Assembly: GCF_000697965.2 (NCBI RefSeq)
Contig: NZ_CP015881.1
Location: 1,475,501 to 1,539,500 of the forward strand
Direction of reading: 5' to 3'
DNA: 64,000 nt
Origin: Ensifer adhaerens
Lineage (GTDB): Bacteria > Pseudomonadota > Alphaproteobacteria > Rhizobiales > Rhizobiaceae
This document shows positions 20,317 to 63,806 of this stretch, piece after piece. The notes beneath the pieces are model-generated. The model was not told where the DNA came from. It did not search any database and worked only from the letters and a program-made list of their open reading frames with translations. The position numbers and the translations under genes were made by a program. The number at the start of each line of letters is the position of its first letter. Position 1 is the stretch's first letter.

Positions 20317-20353
20317 TTGACGTAGATTTGCGATGAACTACTATATCTAGTGT
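20317..20353 (+). promoter_or_regulatory. nrdHIEF promoter with overlapping NrdR-like box
   Basis: TTGACG (20317-20322) and TACTAT (20339-20344) form a -35/-10 pair with 16-base spacing. CTACTATATCTAGTGT (20338-20353) matches the NrdR consensus acaCwATATATwGtgt at about 13 of 16 positions and covers the -10. NrdR represses ribonucleotide reductase genes when dATP is high. NrdR sites usually come in pairs about 31 bases apart, but I see only one good copy. Confidence 0.6.
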
Positions 20354-20556
20354 TCGAGGTTCTTCCGATTCGCAAGGATTGGGAGCTAAGACGGGAATAC
20401 GGTGCGCCGGCGGGTTTCCGCTGAGGCTATGCCGTAGCTGCCCCCGCAACTGTAGACGGCGAGCGACTGTCCGGATTTGGACCACTGAGGCATGAGGCCT
20501 CGGGAAGGTCGGGATGGAAGCTTTGACCCGTAAGCCAGGAGACCTGCCTCGATCAC
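20352..20556 (+). promoter_or_regulatory. Cobalamin (B12) riboswitch
   Basis: The core elements occur in order: TCGAGG (P1 5' strand, 20354-20359), GGGAATACGGTGCG, GCTGCCCCCGCAACTGTA, GGAAGGTCGGGATGG, and the B12 box GCCAGGAGACCTGCC (20534-20548), with CCTCGA (20547-20552) closing P1. This is a full cobalamin riboswitch on the nrdHIEF sense strand. It should switch expression off when adenosylcobalamin is plentiful, which fits a B12-independent reductase that replaces a B12-dependent enzyme (NrdJ) during cobalamin shortage. Confidence 0.95.
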
Positions 20557-20889
20557 CAAACGTCCACGGGCGGGGTGTCCGGAGGGGTTGAGTGCGTGGC
20601 AGGATGAGCCTGCCCGATCGTCTCGACGTCTCCCCGGCAGCCCGTCGAAATCTTCGGGGTGAAGTCATGCCAGTTTCTTCCAGTTCAGATCCACCTTCTG
20701 CGGACGGGTGCGCGTTGTTGCGCGCCTGATTGAAAGGCCGCGCCTTGAAAACCCGCATCCGCGGAATTCCTGAGCGCCCCACCAAAACGAGCCGGCCCGG
20801 TTGCGTAACCGACCTTGGGCCAGCTTGACGACGTCAACTCCGGTCGAGTCGACCGGGGAGCGATGTTTCGTGTCCAATCGCCAACACCA
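20557..20889 (+). other. Long structured leader between riboswitch and terminator-like hairpin
   Basis: There is no credible protein gene. It contains several short perfect inverted repeats: GGCAGG-ATGAG-CCTGCC (20598-20614), a GC-rich hairpin near 20707-20729, and CCGGTCGA-G-TCGACCGG (about 20841-20857). A 20-codon ORF (20667-20729, weak GGGGTG ribosome-binding site) could be a leader peptide but has no support beyond being open. Confidence 0.4.
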
Positions 20890-23726: not shown

Positions 23727-24767
<1,041 letters not shown>

Positions 24768-53589: not shown

Positions 53590-53633
53590 GGAGCGATTAA
53601 AGGATCGCGCTCTCAGAAATGTTAGGAGTAGCG

Positions 53634-54296
53634 ATGCGAGTCCTGATCGTCGAAGACGACGATATCCTTAGAGACGGCCTGAAGGTCGGCCTGGCGCTGG
53701 CGGGCTTCACCACCGATGCCGTCGGCACCTGCGATGCGGCCGCGACGGCGCTTGCCGCCAACGGCTTCGACGCGGTCGTGCTCGACCTGATGCTGCCCGA
53801 CGGCTCCGGTCTCGACATTCTGCGGGACCTGCGCGCCAGGCAGAGCGACATTCCGGTGCTGCTGTTGACCGCACGCGACACCGTGCGCGATCGCGTCGCC
53901 GGCCTCGACACTGGCGCCGACGACTATCTCGGCAAACCCTTCGACCTCGACGAGGTCGCCGCCAGGCTTCGGGCGCTGGCGCGACGCTCCAGCGGCCGGG
54001 CGAGCGCCGCGCTGGAATGGTCGACGCTCAGGCTCGATCCGGCCAGGCAATCGGTGGAACAGGCGGGCAAGCCGGTGCAACTCTCGCGGCGCGAATATTC
54101 CATCCTGCATACGCTGATGTCGCACCCGGGGGTGATCTTCTCCAAGACCAAGCTGGAAGACAAACTCTACGGCTGGCAGGAGGAAATCGAGAGCAACGCC
54201 GTGGAGGTGCACATCCACCATCTGCGCAACAAGCTCGGCCCGGGACTGATCGAAACCATCCGGGGCATCGGCTACCGGCTGGGCGGAGCCGGCTGA
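53634..54296 (+). CDS. OmpR/PhoB-family response regulator (PmrA/QseB/TctD group)
   Basis: This 220-residue protein has a receiver domain with the acidic pocket EDD (7-9), phosphoacceptor Asp51 (VVLDLMLPDG) and Lys in GKPFDLDEV. A winged-helix DNA-binding domain follows (VQLSRREYSILHTLMSHPGV, then NAVEVHIHHLRNKLG). AGGAGTAGCG precedes ATG 53634. The gene overlaps the kinase gene by one base (TGATG). Confidence 0.94.
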   Translation: MRVLIVEDDDILRDGLKVGLALAGFTTDAVGTCDAAATALAANGFDAVVLDLMLPDGSGLDILRDLRARQSDIPVLLLTARDTVRDRVAGLDTGADDYLGKPFDLDEVAARLRALARRSSGRASAALEWSTLRLDPARQSVEQAGKPVQLSRREYSILHTLMSHPGVIFSKTKLEDKLYGWQEEIESNAVEVHIHHLRNKLGPGLIETIRGIGYRLGGAG

Positions 54297-55669
54297 TGCA
54301 ATCGCTGCGCGCCCGGCTTTTCGCCATCCTCCTGATCACGACGGGGCTCCTGTGGCTATCGGCCACCGTCTGGATCTTCCTCAGCACCCGCGCCGAAGTC
54401 GAGCGCGTGCTCGACGCGCGGCTGATGGAGGCGGCGCGCATGGTGAATTCGCTGATCGTCAGCCCAGACATGATGAAGGAAGAAGGCGACACCCATGCCA
54501 ACCGCCCGGCACAGAGCGCGATCAGGATCCCGCTGCTGGAGCACCCGCATTACGACCGGCAGCTCTCCTGCCAGATCTGGTCGCTGGACGGAACTCTGAT
54601 CGGCAAGTCGGACAGCGCGCCCGACACAACGCTTGCGCCCCACGCCATGGGCTTTTCCGAAACCGTCATCAACGGCGAGACCTGGCGTGTCTTTGCGGTG
54701 GAGAATGCGAGCCTCGGCGTGCGCGTTCTCGTCGGTGACAACCTGCGCATCCGCGACCGGCTGGTCAACGACCTGGTCAAGGGGCTGTTGCTGCCGGCGC
54801 TGCTGATCATTCCGCTTCTGGCCGTGCTGATCTGGCTCTGCGTCGGGCGGGGCCTCGCGCCGCTGCGCAAGCTTGCCGGCGACCTTGCCGCGCGTGAAGC
54901 CTCCGACCTGCACGCGATCGAGGACACCGGCACGACGCGCGAGATCAGCCCGGTCTTGAAGTCGCTGAACGGCCTTTTTGCCCGTGTCGCCGGCGCCCGC
55001 GAGCGCGAGCAGAATTTCATCGCGTTTGCCGCCCACGAGTTGCGTACGCCGCTGGCGGGCCTCAAGACGCAGGCGCAGGTGGCGCTCGCCAGCGACGACG
55101 GCGAAATCCGCGAGAAGGCGCTCGGCCAGATCGTCGCCGGTGTCGACCGGACCGGCAAGCTGGTGCGGCAACTGCTCGATATCGCCTCGGTCGAAGCCAC
55201 CGAGAGCGGCAGGCCGGCGGCCGGTTTTGATGTCGGCGAGATGCTGACAAGTCTTCGCACCGAACTCGCCGGCCAGGCGCGTCTCGTCGATGTTGTCGTC
55301 GACGGGGCGATGTCCGGTCTCAGGATCAATATGGATCCGGACCTCTTCCGGCTCGCGGCGCGCAACCTGCTCGAAAACGCCATCAACCATTCGCCACCGG
55401 GCGCAACGGTCTCTTGCCACGCCGAGATACGAGGCCAGCATCTGGCAATCGCGATCAACGACGAGGGGCCTGGCATCCCCGAGGAGGAAATGCCGCGCGT
55501 GACCGAGCGCTTCTTCCGCGGCCGGTTCAAGGCGGCGGCCGGCAGCGGGCTCGGCCTCAGCATCGTCGAGCGTGCGCTTGACCGAACCGGCGCCGAACTC
55601 GAACTGCGCAACCGACCGACCGGCGGCCTCTCGGCTCGCATCGTATTGTCGCAAGGCCTCGCGCCGTGA
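54296..55669 (+). CDS. Sensor histidine kinase
   Basis: This 457-residue protein has transmembrane helix 1 at residues 8-30. A periplasmic sensor of about 130 residues of the 2CSK_N type follows, then transmembrane helix 2 at 164-183, a HAMP linker, the H-box FAAHELRTPL (His247), the N-box NLLENAINHSP, DEGPGIP and GSGLGLSI. It is the partner of the upstream response regulator. The sensor domain type occurs in QseC/PmrB/TctE-like kinases that sense cations or organic acids. Confidence 0.93.
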   Translation: MQSLRARLFAILLITTGLLWLSATVWIFLSTRAEVERVLDARLMEAARMVNSLIVSPDMMKEEGDTHANRPAQSAIRIPLLEHPHYDRQLSCQIWSLDGTLIGKSDSAPDTTLAPHAMGFSETVINGETWRVFAVENASLGVRVLVGDNLRIRDRLVNDLVKGLLLPALLIIPLLAVLIWLCVGRGLAPLRKLAGDLAAREASDLHAIEDTGTTREISPVLKSLNGLFARVAGAREREQNFIAFAAHELRTPLAGLKTQAQVALASDDGEIREKALGQIVAGVDRTGKLVRQLLDIASVEATESGRPAAGFDVGEMLTSLRTELAGQARLVDVVVDGAMSGLRINMDPDLFRLAARNLLENAINHSPPGATVSCHAEIRGQHLAIAINDEGPGIPEEEMPRVTERFFRGRFKAAAGSGLGLSIVERALDRTGAELELRNRPTGGLSARIVLSQGLAP

Positions 55670-55735: not shown

Positions 55736-57406
55736 CTAAGCGCTTTTCCGCATCGGTGGGTCCGGCAGCGGCACCGCGGCCATCAGCGCCCGGGTGTAGG
55801 CGTCCTGCGGATCCTCGAACACGGCGCGGCGCGTTCCCATCTCGACGATGCGGCCGCCGCGCATGACGGCGACATGGTGCGACATCCGCTCGATCACAGC
55901 CATGTCGTGCGAGACGAAGAGATAGGCAAGACCCATCGTCTCCTGCAGTTCGAGCATCAGATCAAGCACGCGTGCCCGCACTGACACGTCGAGCGCGGCC
56001 ACGCTTTCATCCGCGACAATAAGCTTCGGATTGACCGCCAGCGCGCGGGCAATGCAGATGCGCTGCCGCTGTCCCCCGGAGAACTCGTGCGGATAGCGGC
56101 TGGCAGCATCGGGCCCAAGCCCGACACGGCGCAACAGATCGGCGACGCGATCCGTGCGTTCGCTGCGATTGCCGATGCCATGGATGAGCAGCGGCTCGGC
56201 GATCGCCGCCCCGACCGCCATGCGCGGGTCGAGCGAGGCATAGGGATCCTGAAAGATCATCTGCGCGGAGCGGCGCACGGGCCGCATCTGGCGTTGCGAC
56301 AGCGCGCCGATCTGCTGGCCGTCGATCGCCACATCGCCATCGAATGGAATGAGGCCGAGCACCGCCTTGCCGGTGGTCGACTTGCCCGATCCGCTTTCGC
56401 CGACGAGCCCCAGCGTCTCACCGGAGAAGATGTCGAAGGAAACGTCGCTGACGGCGGCGGCCAGCTTCTTTCCGCCCAACAGTCCGCTGGGCTTTTTTCC
56501 GTAGTGGACAGCGAGGTCACGCACGGACAGGACCGGGCTCGCCGCCCGCGGGACGGATGCCGCAGCCGTTGCGGCGATGCGCGGCGGGCCGTCGGTGCCG
56601 GCATGCGCCCCCAGCCTCGGTACGGCCGCCAACAACTCCTGCGTGTAGCGCTCGCGCGGCGAGCGGAAGATCGGCAGCACGTCGCCCTGCTCGACGATGC
56701 GGCCCTGCTGCATGATGACCACGCGATCCGCCATCTGCGCGACCACGCCCATGTCATGGGTGATCAGCACGATCGAAGCGCCGAATTCCCGCTTCAGTTC
56801 CTTCATCAGCGTCAGGATCTGCGCCTGCACGGTAACGTCGAGTGCCGTCGTCGGCTCGTCGGCGATCAGCACCTTGGGTCGGCACGAGAGTGCCATCGCG
56901 ATCATCACGCGCTGCCGCATGCCGCCGGAAAGCTCGTGCGGATATTGCGTCATGCGCCGCGCCGGCTCGGTGATGTGCACCGCATCCAGCATGCGCAGGG
57001 CGACGGCACTCGCCGTTCCCCCCTCGGAACCCTGATGTTCGCGAATGGCCTCGGTCAGTTGCTCGCCGATCGACATCACGGGATTGAGCGATGTCATTGG
57101 CTCCTGAAAGACCATCGCGACATCGCCGCCGCGCACGCTGCGCATCGCACTGTTGGAGAGCTTCGAGAGTTCGCGCCCTTCGAGCTTGATGCTGCCGGAG
57201 GCGATCCGCAGCGAGGCTTTCGGCAGGAGCCCCATGACAGCAAGCGAAGTCACGGATTTGCCCGAGCCGCTCTCGCCGGCAATGCACAGCGTTTCGCCGC
57301 TCATGAGGTTGAAGCTGACGGCATCAAGGACCCTTCGCGGCCCTTGCGGCGTCAACGCATCGACGCAGAGGCCATCGATGCCGAGCACAGGTGCTGCCGT
57401 TGTCAC
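55736..57406 (-). CDS. Peptide/nickel-type ABC transporter fused double ATPase (DppD-DppF)
   Basis: This 556-residue protein has two complete ATPase domains in one chain: Walker A GESGSGKS at about 42-49 and again near 325, with signatures LSGGMRQR and FSGGQRQR. Each has an oligopeptide-type C-terminal extension (RYTQELLAAVP, AYTRALMAAVP). It starts with GTG at 57406 overlapping the amidase stop by 4 bases and is the last gene of the ANTAR-controlled operon. Confidence 0.92.
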   Translation of the reverse strand: MTTAAPVLGIDGLCVDALTPQGPRRVLDAVSFNLMSGETLCIAGESGSGKSVTSLAVMGLLPKASLRIASGSIKLEGRELSKLSNSAMRSVRGGDVAMVFQEPMTSLNPVMSIGEQLTEAIREHQGSEGGTASAVALRMLDAVHITEPARRMTQYPHELSGGMRQRVMIAMALSCRPKVLIADEPTTALDVTVQAQILTLMKELKREFGASIVLITHDMGVVAQMADRVVIMQQGRIVEQGDVLPIFRSPRERYTQELLAAVPRLGAHAGTDGPPRIAATAAASVPRAASPVLSVRDLAVHYGKKPSGLLGGKKLAAAVSDVSFDIFSGETLGLVGESGSGKSTTGKAVLGLIPFDGDVAIDGQQIGALSQRQMRPVRRSAQMIFQDPYASLDPRMAVGAAIAEPLLIHGIGNRSERTDRVADLLRRVGLGPDAASRYPHEFSGGQRQRICIARALAVNPKLIVADESVAALDVSVRARVLDLMLELQETMGLAYLFVSHDMAVIERMSHHVAVMRGGRIVEMGTRRAVFEDPQDAYTRALMAAVPLPDPPMRKSA

Positions 57407-58347
57407 GAAAAGACGATCCTCGGGAAGTAGAAGGAAACGACCCAGTTCGGAGCGTCGACGATCTCGCTGATGCGGAGGTCGCCGCAGACCGAGCAGAGCA
57501 GATAGGCATCGACCGGACTCAAGCCGTGTTCGGCGCCAAGCAGGTCGATCATGCGCATCAGGCTTTCGCGCGCGCCGGTCATCAGATCCGGGCCGATGCC
57601 GGTCGTCACCTCGTAACCGGCAGCATCCAGATGACGGGTCACCGGACCCGGCGTAGTGAACCGCGGGCTGGCGAGACGGGCATCCTTGACGAGCTCGATC
57701 GTGGCTTCGACCTCCATCTGGCTCTCGATCGCGGTGCCACAGACCTCGCCGTCGCCCTGGGCTGCGTGGGTGTCGCCGATGGAAAACAGCGCGCCCTCCA
57801 CCTCGACCGGCAGATAGAGGGTGACGCCCGATGTGAGATCGCGAATGTCGAGATTGCCGCCGACCCGGCGCGGCGGCACCACCGAATGCAGGCCCGGTTC
57901 GGCCGGCGCGACGCCGATCGTGCCGGCGAAGGGCTTCAACGGCACGCGGCCGCCCGGTCCATAGAGCGCCGGCGCCATGGTATTCGCATCATAGGACCAC
58001 ATGTGCAGCGCCGGATCGGTGAACTGATCGGCGAGCAGGCCGAAGCCCGGAATGTTGGCCGTCCAGCCAACGCCCGAGGGCACGAAGCGGCGGATCGTCA
58101 CCTTCAGCGCGTCGCCGGGCGCAGCACCTTCGACATAAACAGGCCCCGTCACCGGATTGATCTTCTCGAAATCGAGCGAGGCCAATGTGTCGAGCGTCGA
58201 GCCAGCGCCGAGCTGCCCGCCGGAAGAATCCAGGCATTCGAAATGGATGGTCTCACCGGGCTTGGCGATCAGCGTCGGCTCGAAGTCGCGGTTCCAGCCG
58301 AAATGATGCTTGGCGCGATGGATGGTGTGTGTGCAGGCAACGCACAT
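57403..58347 (-). CDS. Acetamidase/formamidase family protein (FmdA/AmdA)
   Basis: This 314-residue protein has the family blocks SGGQLGAGSTLDTL, NPVTGPVYVEGAAPGDALKV, FAGTIGVAP, the central GGNLDIRDLTSGVTLYLPVE, GDTHAAQGDGEVCGTAIE and CSVCGDLRISEIVD. These zinc-type amidases release ammonia from formamide or short amides. Its place between a peptide-type binding protein and the ATPase, in an operon led by an AmiC-like sensor, suggests that the imported solute is an amide or contains an amide group. Confidence 0.9.
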   Translation of the reverse strand: MCVACTHTIHRAKHHFGWNRDFEPTLIAKPGETIHFECLDSSGGQLGAGSTLDTLASLDFEKINPVTGPVYVEGAAPGDALKVTIRRFVPSGVGWTANIPGFGLLADQFTDPALHMWSYDANTMAPALYGPGGRVPLKPFAGTIGVAPAEPGLHSVVPPRRVGGNLDIRDLTSGVTLYLPVEVEGALFSIGDTHAAQGDGEVCGTAIESQMEVEATIELVKDARLASPRFTTPGPVTRHLDAAGYEVTTGIGPDLMTGARESLMRMIDLLGAEHGLSPVDAYLLCSVCGDLRISEIVDAPNWVVSFYFPRIVFS

Positions 58348-58407: not shown

Positions 58408-60027
58408 TTATTGCTTCACGAAGATCGCGTCGTAGTTGATGACCCGGGTCGGATCGACGTAGATCTCGCCCTCGCCACCCATTCGCGGCGACTTGGCAAC
58501 GACGCGGCGCTCGTTGGTGACGGGCACCCACGGCGCATCGGCCATAATGTCGGTGAAGATCTTGCCCCATTCCGCCTGCCGCTCGGCCGCCTTTGCCGGA
58601 TCGGACATGGAATCGGCGGCAACGGCGCGCTTGTCGAGTGCCTCGTTGCAGTACCACGACCAGTTCCAGCCGCCCTGGACCGCACCGGAGCAGCCGAGGA
58701 TCGGGCCGTAGAAGTTCGACGGGTCCGGGAAGTCGGCGATCCAGGCCATACCACCCGACCAGATCATCGGCGCTTCGCCTTCGGTGCCGCCGGCGGCAAT
58801 GACGTTGGCCTGGGCCAGCGCCCGCACCTCCGCCTTGATGCCGATGGCGGCCAGATCCTGCTGGATCGCCTGGGCGATGCGCGGCTGCGGGTCGGTGTTG
58901 GTCGAATAGAGCACCGTCTCGAAGCCATCGCCATGTCCGGCCTCGGCGAGCAGGGCCTTCGCCTTCTCGACGTCATAGTCATAACCGGTGAACGCCTTGT
59001 CGTAACCCGGCATCAGCGGCGGCAGCGGCTGGTTGGCGGGCGTCGCGCGACCATTGAGGATGCGGGTGATACGCTCCTTGTTGATCGCCATATTGACGGC
59101 CTGACGAACCTTTACGTCGTCGAAGGGCTTCACCTTGGTGTTGAGCGTGACATAGCCGGTATGGAGCTGCTGTCCATCGACGATAATCTCGGCGCCTTCA
59201 GGCGAATTCTTGATTTCGAGGAATTTTGCCGGCGGAATACCGTCCCCGGCAATATCGACCTCCCCCTTCTGCAGTCGCAGCAGCGCCACCAGCGGCTCCT
59301 GGCCGACCTCGACCGTGAACTTGTCGATATGCGGCATGTCCTTGACGAAATAGTCGGGGTTGCGCTCGAAGGTCAGGCTCTGACCGACGGTCCAGTCCCT
59401 AAGGACGAAGGTGCCGGAGCCGACCGGCTTCTTGCCGAAGTCGCCGGCGGCAGCCTCGACCGCTTCCTTTGGCACGACCGAGGCGAAGTTGACGGCGAGC
59501 ACGTGCAGGAAGGTTGCGTCCGGGCGCGACAGGTGGAAGACGACAGTCGCATCATCCGGCGCCTCAATGCCTTCAAGCGTCGCCGCCTTGCCGCCCGAGA
59601 GATCGTCGAAGCCCTTGATCGCGCCGAAGAAACCGGCGCCCGGCCCCTGCGTCTTCGGGTCGACCGCCCGTTCGATCGAATACTTCACGTCCGAGGCGAC
59701 GATCTCGCGGCCGTTGGTGAATTTCACGCCCTTGCGCAGCTTGAACGTATAGGTCAGGCCATCCGGCGCGACGTCGAAGGTTTCGGCGAGCGACGGCACC
59801 AGCTCGGTGGTACCCGGCTTGTAGTCCATCAGGCGCGAGAACAGGCTCTTGATCATCGACCAGTTGACCCAGTCGTAGCCGATGGCGGGATCGAGCGTGG
59901 CGATATCGTCCTTGTAGGTGATGACGATATCTCCGCCCTGTTTCGGCGCATCCTGTGCAAGGGCCGAGAGCGGTGCTGCGAGCAGTGCCGCAGCGACGGT
60001 TGAAGTTCGAAGCCAGCTTTTGAACAT
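58408..60027 (-). CDS. Dipeptide/oligopeptide-type ABC transporter substrate-binding protein
   Basis: This 539-residue protein has a signal peptide (STVAAALLAAPLSALAQ, cleavage near residue 25) and the SBP_bac_5 fold: LVPSLAETFDVAPDGLTYTF, LRKGVKFTNGREIVASDVKY, FDDVKVRQAVNMAINKERI and MAWIADFPDPSNF. It delivers the solute to the two downstream-acting permeases. It lies 29 bases after the DppB-type permease. Confidence 0.93.
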   Translation of the reverse strand: MFKSWLRTSTVAAALLAAPLSALAQDAPKQGGDIVITYKDDIATLDPAIGYDWVNWSMIKSLFSRLMDYKPGTTELVPSLAETFDVAPDGLTYTFKLRKGVKFTNGREIVASDVKYSIERAVDPKTQGPGAGFFGAIKGFDDLSGGKAATLEGIEAPDDATVVFHLSRPDATFLHVLAVNFASVVPKEAVEAAAGDFGKKPVGSGTFVLRDWTVGQSLTFERNPDYFVKDMPHIDKFTVEVGQEPLVALLRLQKGEVDIAGDGIPPAKFLEIKNSPEGAEIIVDGQQLHTGYVTLNTKVKPFDDVKVRQAVNMAINKERITRILNGRATPANQPLPPLMPGYDKAFTGYDYDVEKAKALLAEAGHGDGFETVLYSTNTDPQPRIAQAIQQDLAAIGIKAEVRALAQANVIAAGGTEGEAPMIWSGGMAWIADFPDPSNFYGPILGCSGAVQGGWNWSWYCNEALDKRAVAADSMSDPAKAAERQAEWGKIFTDIMADAPWVPVTNERRVVAKSPRMGGEGEIYVDPTRVINYDAIFVKQ

Positions 60028-60056: not shown

Positions 60057-60977
60057 TTAGCGGGCGCGGATGCGCGGATCGATGAGCGGCGCGACGAGGT
60101 CGGCAAGGAGGTTGCCAAGCACGATCGCGAGCGCCGAGACGAGCGTCACCCCCATGATGATCGGAATGTCGACCTGCTGGATCGCCTGCCAGGCGAGCTG
60201 GCCGATGCCTGGCCAGCCATAGACGGCCTCGACGACAACGACCCCACTCATGAATTGGCCGATATCGATGCCGATCATGGCGATGACGGGTAGAAGCGCG
60301 TTCGGCAGCGCATGGCGGAAGATGATGCGGAACGAGGACAGGCCCTTGGCACGTGCGGTGCGCACATAATCCTGGTTCAAGACGTCGATCATCGCCGAGC
60401 GCACCATGCGCGCGTACCAGCCGGCACCGAGGATGCCGAGCGTCAGCGCCGGCAGGACCACATGGGCGAAGCTGCCGAAGCCGCTCATCGGGAACCAGGC
60501 GAGCGTGACCGCGAAGACATAGAGCAGCAAAAGGGCCGCAACGAATTGCGGTGCCGAGACGCCGACGAAGGATGCCATCATCACGAGCCGATCGACGAAA
60601 CCGCCGCGCCGGATGGCCGCGACGACACCGAGAAACACGCCGAGCAGGACTTCGACGAAAATGCCGGCCGCCATCAGGATCAGCGTTGCCGGCAGGCGCG
60701 CCGCGATCAAGGTACCGACATCGGTCTTCTGCGCGTAGGAGCGACCGAGATCGCCCTGCACCAGCCCCTGGAGATAGCTCCAGAACTGAACGAGCAGCGG
60801 CTGGTCGAGCCCGAGTTCCCGACGAATGTTGGCGACCGTCTGCGCCGTTGCGCTGCGCCCGGCGATCATGCGCGCCGGGTCGGCGGGAAGCGCATAGAGC
60901 AACAGGAAGGTGATGGCGGCAACGCCGAGCAGGATGAGCGCGGTCTGCACGAGACGGCGCAGCAGAAGGAATGCCAT
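60057..60977 (-). CDS. Peptide-type ABC transporter permease (DppB family)
   Basis: This 306-residue inner-membrane protein has the DppB N-terminus MAFLLLRRLVQTALILLGVA, PADPARMIAG, the EAA loop RTARAKGLSSFRIIFRHALP and VVVEAVYGWPGIGQL. ATG 60977 has GGGAGGGGCTGAG before it; the frame extending to 61025 is ignored. The start lies one base from the stop of the DppC-type gene. Confidence 0.92.
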   Translation of the reverse strand: MAFLLLRRLVQTALILLGVAAITFLLLYALPADPARMIAGRSATAQTVANIRRELGLDQPLLVQFWSYLQGLVQGDLGRSYAQKTDVGTLIAARLPATLILMAAGIFVEVLLGVFLGVVAAIRRGGFVDRLVMMASFVGVSAPQFVAALLLLYVFAVTLAWFPMSGFGSFAHVVLPALTLGILGAGWYARMVRSAMIDVLNQDYVRTARAKGLSSFRIIFRHALPNALLPVIAMIGIDIGQFMSGVVVVEAVYGWPGIGQLAWQAIQQVDIPIIMGVTLVSALAIVLGNLLADLVAPLIDPRIRAR

Positions 60978-60978
60978 C

Positions 60979-61827
60979 TCAGCCCCTCCCGCGTTGCGTC
61001 GGGTCGAGGATATCGCGGAGCGCATCGCCGACCAGATTGAAGGAGAGCGCGGTCAAAAGGATGACGGCGCCGGGGATGAACACCAGCCAGGGCGCGGCCT
61101 GGAAATAGCTCTGGCTCTCGAAGATGATGTTACCCCAGGAGGGTGTCGGCGGCTGGACGCCGATGCCGAGGAATGAGAGCGTCGCTTCGAGCAGCACCGT
61201 GGTTGCGATGCCGAGCGTGCCCCAGACGATCGCCGTCGGCACCAGATGCGGCAGGATGTGGTGAAACAGGATGCGCCCGTGGCCGGCGCCGAGTGAGCGC
61301 TCGGCGAGGATGAAGTCGCGTTCGACCAAGCCACGGGTCTCGGTATAGACGATGCGGGCGACCTGGACCCAGTTGACGAGCGCGATCACCATGGCGACGA
61401 TCCAGAGGCTTGGGCGCAGCAGTGCGGCAAGCACGATCGCCAGCAGCAGCGCCGGAAAGGCCATCATCAGGTCGGTGAAGCGCATCAGTGCGCTGCCGAT
61501 AAGGCCCCGCATGTAGCCCGAGAGAATGCCGATCATGAGCCCGATCGAGACGGCAACGCCATTGGCGACGAGGCCGATGACAAGCGAAGTTCGGGCGCCA
61601 TAGAGCAGGCGCGAAAAGAGGTCGCGGCCGAGCGTATCGGTACCGAGCAGGAACTGAGCACTCGGCGGCAACGGCGCTCCTTCGAGCGTCAGCCCGTCGA
61701 ACATCTGTTCGTCCGGGCTATAGGGGGCAACCAGCGGAGCGGCCAAAGCGAGCATGACGACCAGTGCAACGACGACGAGACCGAACAGCGCCGCCGGCTG
61801 CCTGAACATGGATTTCAAAACCTGCAT
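60979..61827 (-). CDS. Peptide-type ABC transporter permease (DppC family)
   Basis: This 282-residue protein has the DppC pattern: LAAPLVAPYSPDEQ, LGTDTLGRDLFSRLLYGART, the EAA loop LAERSLGAGHGRILFHHILP and LGIGVQPPTPSWGNII. ATG 61827 shares one base with the stop of the ANTAR gene and has GGAGG 8 bases upstream. Confidence 0.92.
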   Translation of the reverse strand: MQVLKSMFRQPAALFGLVVVALVVMLALAAPLVAPYSPDEQMFDGLTLEGAPLPPSAQFLLGTDTLGRDLFSRLLYGARTSLVIGLVANGVAVSIGLMIGILSGYMRGLIGSALMRFTDLMMAFPALLLAIVLAALLRPSLWIVAMVIALVNWVQVARIVYTETRGLVERDFILAERSLGAGHGRILFHHILPHLVPTAIVWGTLGIATTVLLEATLSFLGIGVQPPTPSWGNIIFESQSYFQAAPWLVFIPGAVILLTALSFNLVGDALRDILDPTQRGRG

Positions 61828-62408
61828 CAACCGGCCTCCGGCAGGGGCTCGGCACCGCCGAGGATGGAACCGGCGATCTGCTCCATCGACAGGCGCTTTT
61901 TCATCGCGCAATTGCGCAGGATTCCATAGGCTTGTTCTTCGTTGACATGGCAGGCCTGACCGATCTTCTGCACGGCGGCATGAACGAGCGGGCGCATGCG
62001 CACCCGTTCTTCGAGATGGGCGATCTTGTCGGCGACGGCGCGGCGCTCCTCGTAGATCCCAACCGCCAACACCAGGGCCGGGTAGACCGCCGAGGACGCG
62101 ACCGGCTTGGCGATGATGGCCGCAACCCCCTGCCCCATCGCCCAGGCGACCCGGCCCGGTGCTTCCGAGCCGAGCAAGGCGATCAGCGGCCGTGGCGCCT
62201 GCTCGTCCTTCCAGGGCAAGAGCCCGCTCCAGCCCTGGTCAGCGTCGACGAGGATGATATCGGGCAGGTCGCGCGCATCGAGCGGCTGCCATTGTACGGT
62301 GACGTCGAAGCCGAAGAGCTTGAGCTGTCGCACCAGCCGCTCCGTCGTCTGGTCTTCGCGGTGCAGGATTGCCGCACGCCAGCCGGTGAAGTTCGGTGTT
62401 TCCCTCAT
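61827..62408 (-). CDS. ANTAR-domain RNA-binding antiterminator (AmiR-like)
   Basis: This 193-residue protein has an N-terminal receiver-like domain without a clear phospho-Asp (DIILVDADQG), as in AmiR. A coiled-coil stretch follows (ERRAVADKIAHLEERVRMRP), then a C-terminal ANTAR domain (QAYGILRNCAMKKRLSMEQI, about residues 158-177). ATG 62408 overlaps the AmiC-like gene by 4 bases. AmiR-type proteins bind nascent leader RNA and prevent termination when their AmiC partner binds an amide. A matching terminator lies at 63551-63604. Confidence 0.9.
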   Translation of the reverse strand: MRETPNFTGWRAAILHREDQTTERLVRQLKLFGFDVTVQWQPLDARDLPDIILVDADQGWSGLLPWKDEQAPRPLIALLGSEAPGRVAWAMGQGVAAIIAKPVASSAVYPALVLAVGIYEERRAVADKIAHLEERVRMRPLVHAAVQKIGQACHVNEEQAYGILRNCAMKKRLSMEQIAGSILGGAEPLPEAG

Positions 62409-63541
62409 GAGACGATCCGCAATTGGGGCGCCTTGCGCTTGCGCTGGCCGGTCAGATAGGGGTCGGCGGCAATTGACGGCAGCGATGTGACGATGTCGAA
62501 GCCTCCGTCGTCGCTGATGCGGCCGAGATGGAACGGCAACGCCGCATGGTGGGTCTGCGGATCGATCCTGAGCGGGCCGAGCACACTCTGATGCGCCGCT
62601 GCCGAAACAAGCTGCGTGATCGTCGCGGGATCGTCGACGCCCGCCTCGATGATCGCCTCGGCGCAAAGCTTGACGGAGGCATAGGCGCTGGCAAACAGGC
62701 TGGAGATGCGTCGCCCGGGGCCGAAGCGACTGGCAACGCGCAGCTTGAAGGCCGCATTGTCGGGCGAAACCACCGTGTCGAAATAGGAGGCGGCACAGAG
62801 CTGGCCGGTCGCGACCCCGAGGCCGATATCCGTCAACTCGCACTCCTGAAGGTCGCAGCTGACGACGGGGCAGTTTTGCGGTCGGAACCCCGGATCGCGC
62901 ACGGCGAGCGCCCGGATCGCGGCGTGGAAGGCGTAACTGGAAGGACCGACGAGATTATTGAGGATGAAGCTCGGCCGGCGCTGCTCGATTTCGGCGACGA
63001 TCCGCTCGACCGCGGTTTCCTCGAGCGGCAGGTAACGCTCGCCGAGGATTGCGCCGCCGGCTTCCTCCACCAGCTCGCGCGCCAGGCGGTTCATTTCCCA
63101 GCCCCAGACATAGTTTGCACCGATCAGATAGGGCCGGTTGCCGAAACGCGGCAGCAGATAGTCGAGCAAGGGCAGCAAATGCTGGTTCGGGCAGGCGCCC
63201 GTATAGATCACGTTGTCGTTGGCCTCGAAGCCCTCATAGGGGCACATGTACCAGAGCAGGCCGTCGTGCTTTTCGACAAGCGGAATGACCTCCTTGCGAG
63301 CGAGCGAGGTGATGGTGCCGATGATGTGGCGGCATCCGTGGTCGCGCAGCAGCGATTTGGCGCCTTCGAGATAACGGTCGATATTGGCTTCCGGATCGAT
63401 GAAAACCGGCTCGATCCGGCCCGGATGGCTTGCCGCAATCTCCTCGATCGCCAGTTCCGCGCCATCGCGACAGTCGCGGCCCATCGTCCCGTAGGGCCCG
63501 GTCGTCGAATAGAGGATGCCGATCTTTACCGCGCCGCTCAT
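62405..63541 (-). CDS. AmiC-like cytoplasmic amide sensor (periplasmic-binding-protein fold without signal peptide)
   Basis: This 378-residue protein starts directly with the binding fold (VKIGILYSTTGPYGTMGRDC) and has no signal peptide, as expected for AmiC rather than for an importer component. Further AmiC/UrtA-type blocks are GTITSLARKEVIPLVEKHDG, YLIGANYVWGWEMNRLAREL and CAEAIIEAG. AmiC silences AmiR until it binds an amide. It is the first gene of the operon and directly follows the leader terminator. Confidence 0.9.
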   Translation of the reverse strand: MSGAVKIGILYSTTGPYGTMGRDCRDGAELAIEEIAASHPGRIEPVFIDPEANIDRYLEGAKSLLRDHGCRHIIGTITSLARKEVIPLVEKHDGLLWYMCPYEGFEANDNVIYTGACPNQHLLPLLDYLLPRFGNRPYLIGANYVWGWEMNRLARELVEEAGGAILGERYLPLEETAVERIVAEIEQRRPSFILNNLVGPSSYAFHAAIRALAVRDPGFRPQNCPVVSCDLQECELTDIGLGVATGQLCAASYFDTVVSPDNAAFKLRVASRFGPGRRISSLFASAYASVKLCAEAIIEAGVDDPATITQLVSAAAHQSVLGPLRIDPQTHHAALPFHLGRISDDGGFDIVTSLPSIAADPYLTGQRKRKAPQLRIVS

Positions 63542-63550
63542 GTACCCGCC

Positions 63551-63604
63551 AAAAACCAAAAACCCCACGACGCCGGGCCCATCGAAGATGGGGGCATCAT
63601 GGGG
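63551..63604 (-). terminator. Leader intrinsic terminator before the AmiC-like gene
   Basis: In the minus-strand RNA, CCCCAUGAUGCC (63604-63593) pairs with GGCGUCGUGGGG (63574-63563): 12 consecutive pairs including two G-U. They enclose an inner hairpin CCCAUC-UUC-GAUGGG. UUUUUGGUUUUU (63562-63551) follows at once. It ends 10 bases before the ATG of the first gene, so uncontrolled transcripts should stop before the operon. Confidence 0.85.
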
Positions 63605-63615
63605 CGAAACTGCCC
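63602..63615 (-). promoter_or_regulatory. Competing hairpin (candidate ANTAR antiterminator stem)
   Basis: The RNA GGGC-AGUUUC-GCCC forms a hairpin with a six-base loop. Its 3' strand shares three bases with the 5' arm of the terminator, so the two structures exclude each other. ANTAR targets have six-base loops with A at position 1 and G at position 4. Here position 1 is A but position 4 is U, so the match is partial. Confidence 0.5.
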
Positions 63616-63645
63616 GTCGACCATCGAGGTCATGTGAATGGATTG

Positions 63646-63670
63646 ATCATGCTCAATCTGAGAGCATGAT
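63646..63670 (-). promoter_or_regulatory. Upstream leader hairpin / palindrome
   Basis: ATCATGCTC and GAGCATGAT form nine perfect pairs around a 7-base loop. In ANTAR leaders two hairpins occur in tandem, and this could be the first, 30 bases before the one that overlaps the terminator. The loop does not show the A1/G4 pattern, so an operator role is an alternative. Confidence 0.45.
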
Positions 63671-63729
63671 TAAGATACGGGCAATCGACGGCTGTCAAGC
63701 AAGGATTGGCAAGCTCGCAACCTATTATA
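63670..63729 (-). promoter_or_regulatory. Candidate promoters of the amide operon
   Basis: On the minus strand a perfect TATAAT lies at 63729-63724 with a weak -35. TTGACA at 63698-63693 has TCTTAA 17 bases downstream (63675-63670). The first would give a leader of about 175 nt containing both hairpins and the terminator. The second would start inside the first hairpin. Confidence 0.45.
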
Positions 63730-63806
63730 CGCAACTTTACAGACAGAGGCGGGTGGAGCACCGCAATCAAGCGCCACTGCTGCGCGGAGGCGCGTAGGAG
63801 GACATT

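Follow-up and report, generated by a model that had tools for sequence, protein, structure and literature searches.

The question raised by this locus is how expression is controlled in an operon that opens with an AmiC-like sensor and an ANTAR-domain protein and continues with a peptide-type importer and an enzyme of the FmdA/AmdA family. The locus lies on a megaplasmid of Ensifer adhaerens, in a stretch of 64,000 nucleotides (NZ_CP015881.1, positions 1,475,501 to 1,539,500; hereafter, the window), and its sensor has a match of 100% identity in NZ_CP121309.1. The available evidence points, with a probability of about 0.8, to an AmiC/AmiR-type switch in front of the seven genes that acts by transcription antitermination and regulates itself, as judged from sequence. 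The elements of the leader are given below in the order of transcription, with counts from the 105 distinct ‘family' leaders defined further on.

63669..63698, minus strand: promoter-like stretch TTGACA-18-CTTAAT (TTGACA at 63698-63693, -10-like sequence at 63674-63669)
63632..63635, minus strand: ACAU directly 5' of P1 (ACAT at the matching place in 97 of the 105 family leaders)
63619..63631, minus strand: P1 hairpin GACC-UCGAU-GGUC, from folding and alignment
63602..63615, minus strand: P2 hairpin GGGC-AGUUUC-GCCC, with a hexaloop and a 3' arm shared with the terminator (its four pairs hold in 100% of cells across 62 leaders)
63563..63604, minus strand: intrinsic terminator, a 12-base-pair stem with an inner 6-base-pair hairpin, from sequence, conservation, covariation and folding
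63551..63562, minus strand: interrupted U tract TTTTTGGTTTTT (a T-rich stretch also lies 3' of the stem in family leaders)

The terminator stem joins CCCCATGATGCC (63604-63593) to GGCGTCGTGGGG (63574-63563) by 12 contiguous pairs, two of which are G-U, around the inner hairpin CCCATC-TTC-GATGGG (63592-63578). It begins at the second base of the P2 3' arm, with 63604-63602 common to both structures, and three bases separate P1 from P2. Thus, the 12-pair terminator with its U tract, described in the original prediction from the window alone, can be read directly from the minus strand, and the three-base overlap with a hexaloop hairpin that it reported is confirmed; the tract, said there to end 10 bases before the first gene, ends 9 bases ahead of the sensor ATG at 63541. 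P1, the second hairpin just upstream, was absent from that account. Folding of 63730-63541, as suggested there, does give a long pairing, but one dominated by promoter bases: the range spans the promoter-like stretch, and so the pairing uses bases that are probably not transcribed. Transcription would start near 63662; the promoter pattern TTGACN-N17-19 is present in 76 of the 105 family leaders. An inverted repeat is located at the presumed start site (63646-63671, minus strand). As a general operator, AATC-N9-GATT was rejected, being found in only 32 of the 105 family leaders (compared with 5 of 2100 base shuffles); the repeat could serve as an operator or simply reflect the -10 region of close relatives.

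The terminator is more stable than expected from its composition. The 50-nucleotide stretch that holds it folds at -32.4 kcal/mol, compared with a shuffle mean of -17.9 (standard deviation 3.3; z-score -4.4), and none of 200 shuffles folds as well; the stability of the P1 and P2 prefix alone is unexceptional (z-score -1.2, with 22 of 200 shuffles as good). A 50-nucleotide prefix folds as P1 and P2, and the longer RNA as P1 and the terminator. If P2 is forced to form, the fold is 4.0 kcal/mol less stable and the four G beside the U tract are left without partners.

The whole arrangement is conserved among relatives. An ANTAR-protein search of 297 Rhizobiaceae genomes yields a close group of loci down to an E-value of 3e-66 (L003-L026), followed by a gap to 5e-41; a further search of 397 genomes of the order added loci, and a scan of named genomes found 314 relatives, of which the best 80 were used. 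The seven-gene order is complete in 78 of these best 80, the other two (L045 and L072) being cut by contig ends. An extra ATPase match in nine of the 78 complete loci probably represents two halves of one gene matching each other, and L096 has a second solute-binding match. The laboratory strain Rhizobium johnstonii 3841 (NC_008384.1) has a relative, with an ANTAR protein that is 67% identical. Within the operons of L033-L112, the ANTAR protein has changed more quickly than the first permease, with 50-92% and 81-95% identity to the window, respectively.

Altogether 139 loci were obtained, of which 135 entered the leader script, 120 as ‘family' (sensor identity of at least 55%) and 15 as ‘distant' (below that threshold); after removal of identical leaders, 105 family and 15 distant leaders remain. 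At least nine contiguous terminator pairs precede a T-rich stretch in 100 of the 105, compared with 51 of 1050 dinucleotide shuffles; the remaining five have eight contiguous pairs (four leaders) or four (one leader). A P2 hexaloop with A at position 1 (A1) is found at the expected place in all 105, a count for which the search rule itself demanded A1.

Covariation was analyzed in an alignment of 62 segments, thinned by similarity from 103 distinct ones. In the terminator, 87.1% of cells are paired and changes on both sides are seen at 16 pairs, a number that none of 500 shuffles attains; the covariation score is higher than in any of the 500 shuffles or slid controls. For P1 and P2 together, 91.6% of cells pair, compared with 88.3% in shuffles; the covariation score is again above all 500 shuffles and every slid control, and the count of pairs changed on both sides is reached by 22 of the 500. 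In the two aligned parts of P1, 85.9% and 74.6% of cells are paired, and both sides show changes. The leaders are related and, therefore, these counts do not represent independent events. The terminator and the hairpin are both conserved and covarying, which is what the comparison of orthologous leaders proposed with the original prediction was to look for. Alignment column 69 is common to P2 and the terminator. Together with its P2 partner, it forms a C-G combination in 93 of the 105 leaders, T-G in nine and T-A in three; where C is changed to T, the partners in P2 and in the terminator both stay compatible, and in L013 both partners are A. The pattern fits an RNA that would be selected for both folds, although just one sequence, L013, has the full three-way change.

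Since the terminator and the hairpin are conserved, covarying and located directly before the sensor-ANTAR pair, the natural reading is self-regulation combined with control of the importer and the enzyme. Conservation, covariation and position thus support the earlier proposal that the sensor and the antiterminator would regulate their own synthesis along with the uptake system. From these elements, we infer sequestration and release of the ANTAR protein, its direct binding to the RNA and readthrough as follows. Polymerase would start near 63662, and P1 and P2 would form first as the leader emerges. Without ligand, the sensor would hold the ANTAR protein, P2 would yield to the stronger terminator and transcription would stop in the U tract before the sensor gene. 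Binding of a small amide- or urea-like ligand to the sensor would free the ANTAR protein as a dimer, which would bind the ACAU-P1-P2 element and hold P2; the held P2 would block the terminator pairs next to the U tract, and polymerase would read into the seven genes. The element would be read by a modified code, in which an A1 hexaloop without G4 in P2 and a variable-loop P1 are matched by an ANTAR domain without Lys143, Lys147 and Lys149.

The seven genes are consecutive on the minus strand, and those of the sensor and the ANTAR protein overlap:

62405..63541, minus strand: AmiC/UrtA-like cytoplasmic sensor, 378 amino acids, no signal peptide (PF13433; matches to 1pea and 8tg1; fold match)
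61827..62408, minus strand: predicted antiterminator with AmiR_N and ANTAR domains, 193 amino acids (PF21332 and PF03861 above cut-off; AmiR 1qo0 and EutV 6ww6 by fold)
60979..61827, minus strand: OppC-like permease, from the family scan
60057..61025, minus strand: OppB-like permease, from the family scan
58408..60027, minus strand: solute-binding protein of the SBP_bac_5 family (Pfam)
57403..58347, minus strand: enzyme of the FmdA/AmdA (acetamidase/formamidase) family, 314 amino acids (PF03069)
55736..57406, minus strand: double ATP-binding cassette (ABC) ATPase of the importer, with two ABC_tran stretches (Pfam)

For the first two genes, Pfam, sequence and fold matches all agree with the original assignment as an AmiC-like sensor without a signal peptide and an AmiR-like ANTAR protein. 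The FmdA/AmdA amidase also stands, through its match to the broader family PF03069, and the enzyme scores 113.8 bits against the NCBI FmdA formamidase equivalog, for which the cut-off is 500. The importer, previously counted as five genes, consists of four in the Pfam and NCBI family scans (OppC-like, OppB-like, SBP_bac_5 and one double ATPase). In many Rhizobiaceae, the operon is a candidate for an inducible system that takes up a nitrogen compound.

The sensor starts with MSGAVKIGILYSTTG. It matches AmiC (1pea) with an E-value of 1.2e-48 and, slightly better, a urea-binding protein (8tg1) with 6.4e-53, and its predicted model (mean predicted local distance difference test score, pLDDT, 85.9) superimposes on 8tg1 with template modelling scores of 0.88/0.90 and on 1pea with 0.86/0.88. 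The aligned pocket region has GTITS for GCYMS of AmiC and WYMCPYEGF for CYPTPYEGF. The residues T76, I77, T78, S79, W97, Y98, C100 and P101 are invariant in 24 sensor sequences; T76-S79, W97, Y98, C100 and P101 presumably line the pocket.

The best solved match of the regulator, by both sequence and fold, is AmiR. In the EutV-RNA structure (PMC8934654), Arg142, Lys149 and Glu160 bind G4 of P2, which stacks on Tyr164; Lys143 and Lys147 of the other chain also contact the RNA. In NasR, the K347R substitution, at a residue equated here with Lys149 by spacing, weakens binding about tenfold (PMC7496416). Among the 106 family proteins (the window and its own copy L003 both included), position 149 in EutV numbering is V, I, M or L in all 106, position 143 is P in 104 and position 147 is A in 95. 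The other contacts are largely kept: Arg142 in 105, Glu160 in 94 (Asp in the other 12), Tyr164 in 105, Arg168 in 104, and Met172 and Arg175 in all 106. The 15 distant proteins have V, I or T at position 149. Retention of most backbone-binding and stacking residues together with the loss of three lysines fits, at the level of sequence, the missing G4 in the RNA.

Published ANTAR targets consist of two hairpins whose hexaloops carry A1 and G4 (PMC3369931, PMC7496416 and PMC8934654). The layout of two hairpins, the second overlapping the terminator, is the same in the Ensifer leader; the loops are different. The P2 loops among the 105 family leaders are AGUUUC in 55, AGUUUG in 11, AGCAUG in nine and others in the rest, with U at position 4 in 73, A in 30, C in one and G in one. 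P1 is an A1/G4 hexaloop in none of the 105; its loop has 3 to 7 bases in 101 and is longer in four. In the 15 distant leaders, read partly by eye, P2 has A1 in 13, G5 in 14 and G4 in two, L136 being uncertain.

The same genome encodes one other ANTAR match, NasT-like by its sequence, with Arg142, Lys143, Arg147 and Lys149. About 1.4 kilobases downstream of its gene, on the same strand, is a NasT-type leader with the loops AACGAC and AAAGCC. A DNA search of 101 genomes gave matches in 37; 30 loci were taken, of which 14, from the same bacterial family, have a clear leader. The other 16 show a gene match only or are unclear; among them, L192 and L193, with one such loop and no clear pair, were dropped. 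In all 14, P1 is A1/G4 and P2 has G4; A1 is present in P2 in 13, the remaining one having G1. The leader of L194 was read by hand, the script having chosen another place. No NasT protein was found by the script within these short loci, and hence the protein side of the comparison rests on the E. adhaerens genome itself.

As a general rule, the idea that the single residue Lys149 reads G4 is contradicted by other AmiC/AmiR loci. L174 and L176-L179, with T, I or V at position 149, have a terminator after the ANTAR gene and candidate P2 loops with G4 and U1 (UAGGAA, UAUGUA, UAUGCA, UUUGAA and UGUGCA). The Lys149 loci L170, L171 and L182 have an A1/G4 candidate for P1 and a P2 without G4 (P1 and all of L182 read by eye); L175, with Gln149, has the loops AACAGC and AAAAAA, neither with G4, and no leader was found at L172 and L173. 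Because the loops are mixed across AmiC/AmiR loci, the association between loop and residue holds at the clade level and not as a one-residue rule. A second leader of the U1/G4 type is located at 1886 in L174.

A tentative interpretation, falling somewhat short of even odds, is that ANTAR proteins and their targets have diverged into distinct recognition codes, used side by side in one cell, which insulate two antitermination channels from each other. The NasT-like protein, with Lys149 kept, would read two A1/G4 hexaloops, and the amide-type regulator, in which Lys143, Lys147 and Lys149 are replaced by Pro, Ala and Val, would read ACAU-P1 plus an A1 hexaloop without G4. A third code, with U1/G4 in P2, may serve other AmiC/AmiR loci. 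The window leader is off the A1/G4 dual-hexaloop consensus that underlies the ANTAR-target covariance model suggested as a check with the original prediction; Rfam gives no ANTAR match on this leader, nor even on the NasT-type leader locus L186. A covariance model of the window leader, which includes the terminator, finds one strong place in the E. adhaerens genome (E-value 1.3e-25, the next being 5.4) among the 150 candidates scored out of 3323, and within that scope no wider regulon is seen.

Several observations weigh against an AmiC/AmiR-type switch at this locus. The leaders depart from the published A1/G4 consensus, with G4 in P2 in one of 105. Pairing in P1 is weaker than in P2, in part because its loop length varies, and RNAalifold alone predicts eight terminator pairs and neither P1 nor P2. 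The sensor resembles the urea-binding protein as much as AmiC, and therefore its ligand class can be given only as ‘amide- or urea-like'. If the departures in the loops were noise or came from a wrong choice of hairpins, the leader would be an ordinary A1/G4 dual-hexaloop target. Some P1 loops do carry G (e.g. UUCGAU), under a looser rule, 4 of the 105 have a C-ANNGNN-G hairpin near P1/P2, and Arg142, Glu160, Tyr164, Arg168, Met172 and Arg175 are mostly kept; nevertheless, with 1 of 105 (P2 G4) and 0 of 105 (P1 A1/G4) set against 14 of 14 for both in the NasT-type leaders, this explanation is quite improbable. Unlikely, too, is additional control by phosphorylation, in which the sensor would act alongside a phosphate signal received at the receiver-like active site of the regulator. 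D55, K101 and P102 are present in all 106 family rows and all 15 distant proteins, and S81 in 106 and 14, respectively; the predicted model (pLDDT 91.6) places strand ends at D55 and immediately ahead of K101, as in a receiver. The Asp is absent, unlike in this regulator, from all 10 AmiR-type proteins of a phylum search, and in AmiR itself the aligned residue is Ser. At the threshold used, however, Pfam names the domain AmiR_N and not a receiver, the acid at position 19 is absent in 14 of the 15 distant proteins, and there is no kinase gene in the operon; a two-component pair at 53619-55669 is on the other strand, with no tie found. A phospho-acceptor-like Asp that the AmiR pseudo-receiver lacks argues, as far as sequence goes, for a variant and not against antitermination.

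Two further explanations do without ANTAR control. Termination could be coupled to translation of a leader peptide, for which the window offers a frame of 31 codons from ATG 63633 to TGA 63538 (minus strand), open through P2 and the terminator and ending on the sensor start. Yet this frame is not conserved, and such attenuation is rejected as highly improbable: TAG falls in the P2 loop in L020, L021 and L024, and TGA in P2 in L016; L019 and L026 have no such ATG; no Shine-Dalgarno-like stretch is apparent (all by eye); and, from one relative to another, altered P1 loops displace the frame. Equally hard to credit is the idea that the element is an ordinary terminator serving the TonB-receptor-like gene upstream and plays no part in regulation. 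That gene is on the same strand and ends about 180 bases upstream of the leader hairpins, but the hairpins and the terminator follow a promoter-like stretch that is conserved and immediately precede the sensor gene, an arrangement kept where the upstream genes differ, as in L181.

The antitermination switch proposed here has close parallels among known systems, and the control of nitrogen genes by ANTAR proteins through leader terminators is established (PMC3369931). With AmiC/AmiR of Pseudomonas aeruginosa (treated in PMC3369931 and PMC8934654), it shares a sensor of the periplasmic-binding fold without a signal peptide, an ANTAR partner and a leader terminator overlapped by a small hexaloop hairpin. 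Unlike in P. aeruginosa, the Ensifer regulators come first, behind the leader, and the cargo is a peptide-type importer with FmdA/AmdA instead of AmiE; the ANTAR protein has no Lys149, which AmiR keeps, and has the receiver-like Asp missing from AmiR, and the RNA is without an A1/G4 hexaloop in P1. The two small hairpins, the second overlapping the terminator, are also found in the NasT, NasR and EutV systems (PMC3369931, PMC7496416 and PMC8934654), whose targets differ in having A1 and G4 in both hexaloops. Klebsiella plasmids are described as carrying AmiC/AmiR operons that include ABC importers and amidase genes, among them amiE (PMC13209695). As in those operons and in L182, an AmiC-like sensor, an ANTAR protein, an ABC importer and amidase genes stand together in Ensifer, and L182 also has a gene of the acetamidase/formamidase family; unlike in Ensifer, its importer is of the urea/branched-chain type and placed first, and Lys149 is kept. 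L182 is a Klebsiella grimontii plasmid that also carries a nitrilase-family gene and a hairpin with the loop AATAGA at the terminator.

Importers in AmiC/AmiR operons are, then, already known; what is new is the operon conserved in rhizobia, together with its leader, and the non-canonical pairing of RNA and protein. Among the openly accessible papers searched, no description of this operon or of an ANTAR code without G4 was recognized, and the tables of PMC3369931 may list such leaders. The choice of RNA by an ANTAR domain is known in structure only for A1/G4 hexaloops. With 105 leaders without the G4 consensus, regulators devoid of three RNA-contact lysines and a NasT-type A1/G4 pair in the same genome, the question of specificity is directly testable, and the leaders found here suggest that consensus-based searches would miss such elements.

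The enzyme also occurs apart from the regulators. FmdA-like matches with an E-value of 1e-60 or better are present in 111 of 294 genomes, and 14 loci were taken. Three (L225-L227) have the regulators, with a terminator found by script in two and by eye in the third; nine have the enzyme outside this operon; L218 and L219 have the importer and enzyme genes with no sensor or ANTAR match, L219 starting near a contig end. In the 300 bases upstream of the OppC-like gene of L218, there is an apparent decayed leader, in which the U tract is broken and the P2 loop has 5 bases; the apparent first codons of a lost sensor gene come next. This one informative case fits a switch that would decay once the regulator is lost.

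Elsewhere in the window, a cobalamin riboswitch (20340-20565, plus strand; Rfam RF00174, 117.6 bits) lies ahead of two plus-strand open reading frames (to 23726, and 23760-24767), which we take to encode the large and small subunits of ribonucleotide reductase.

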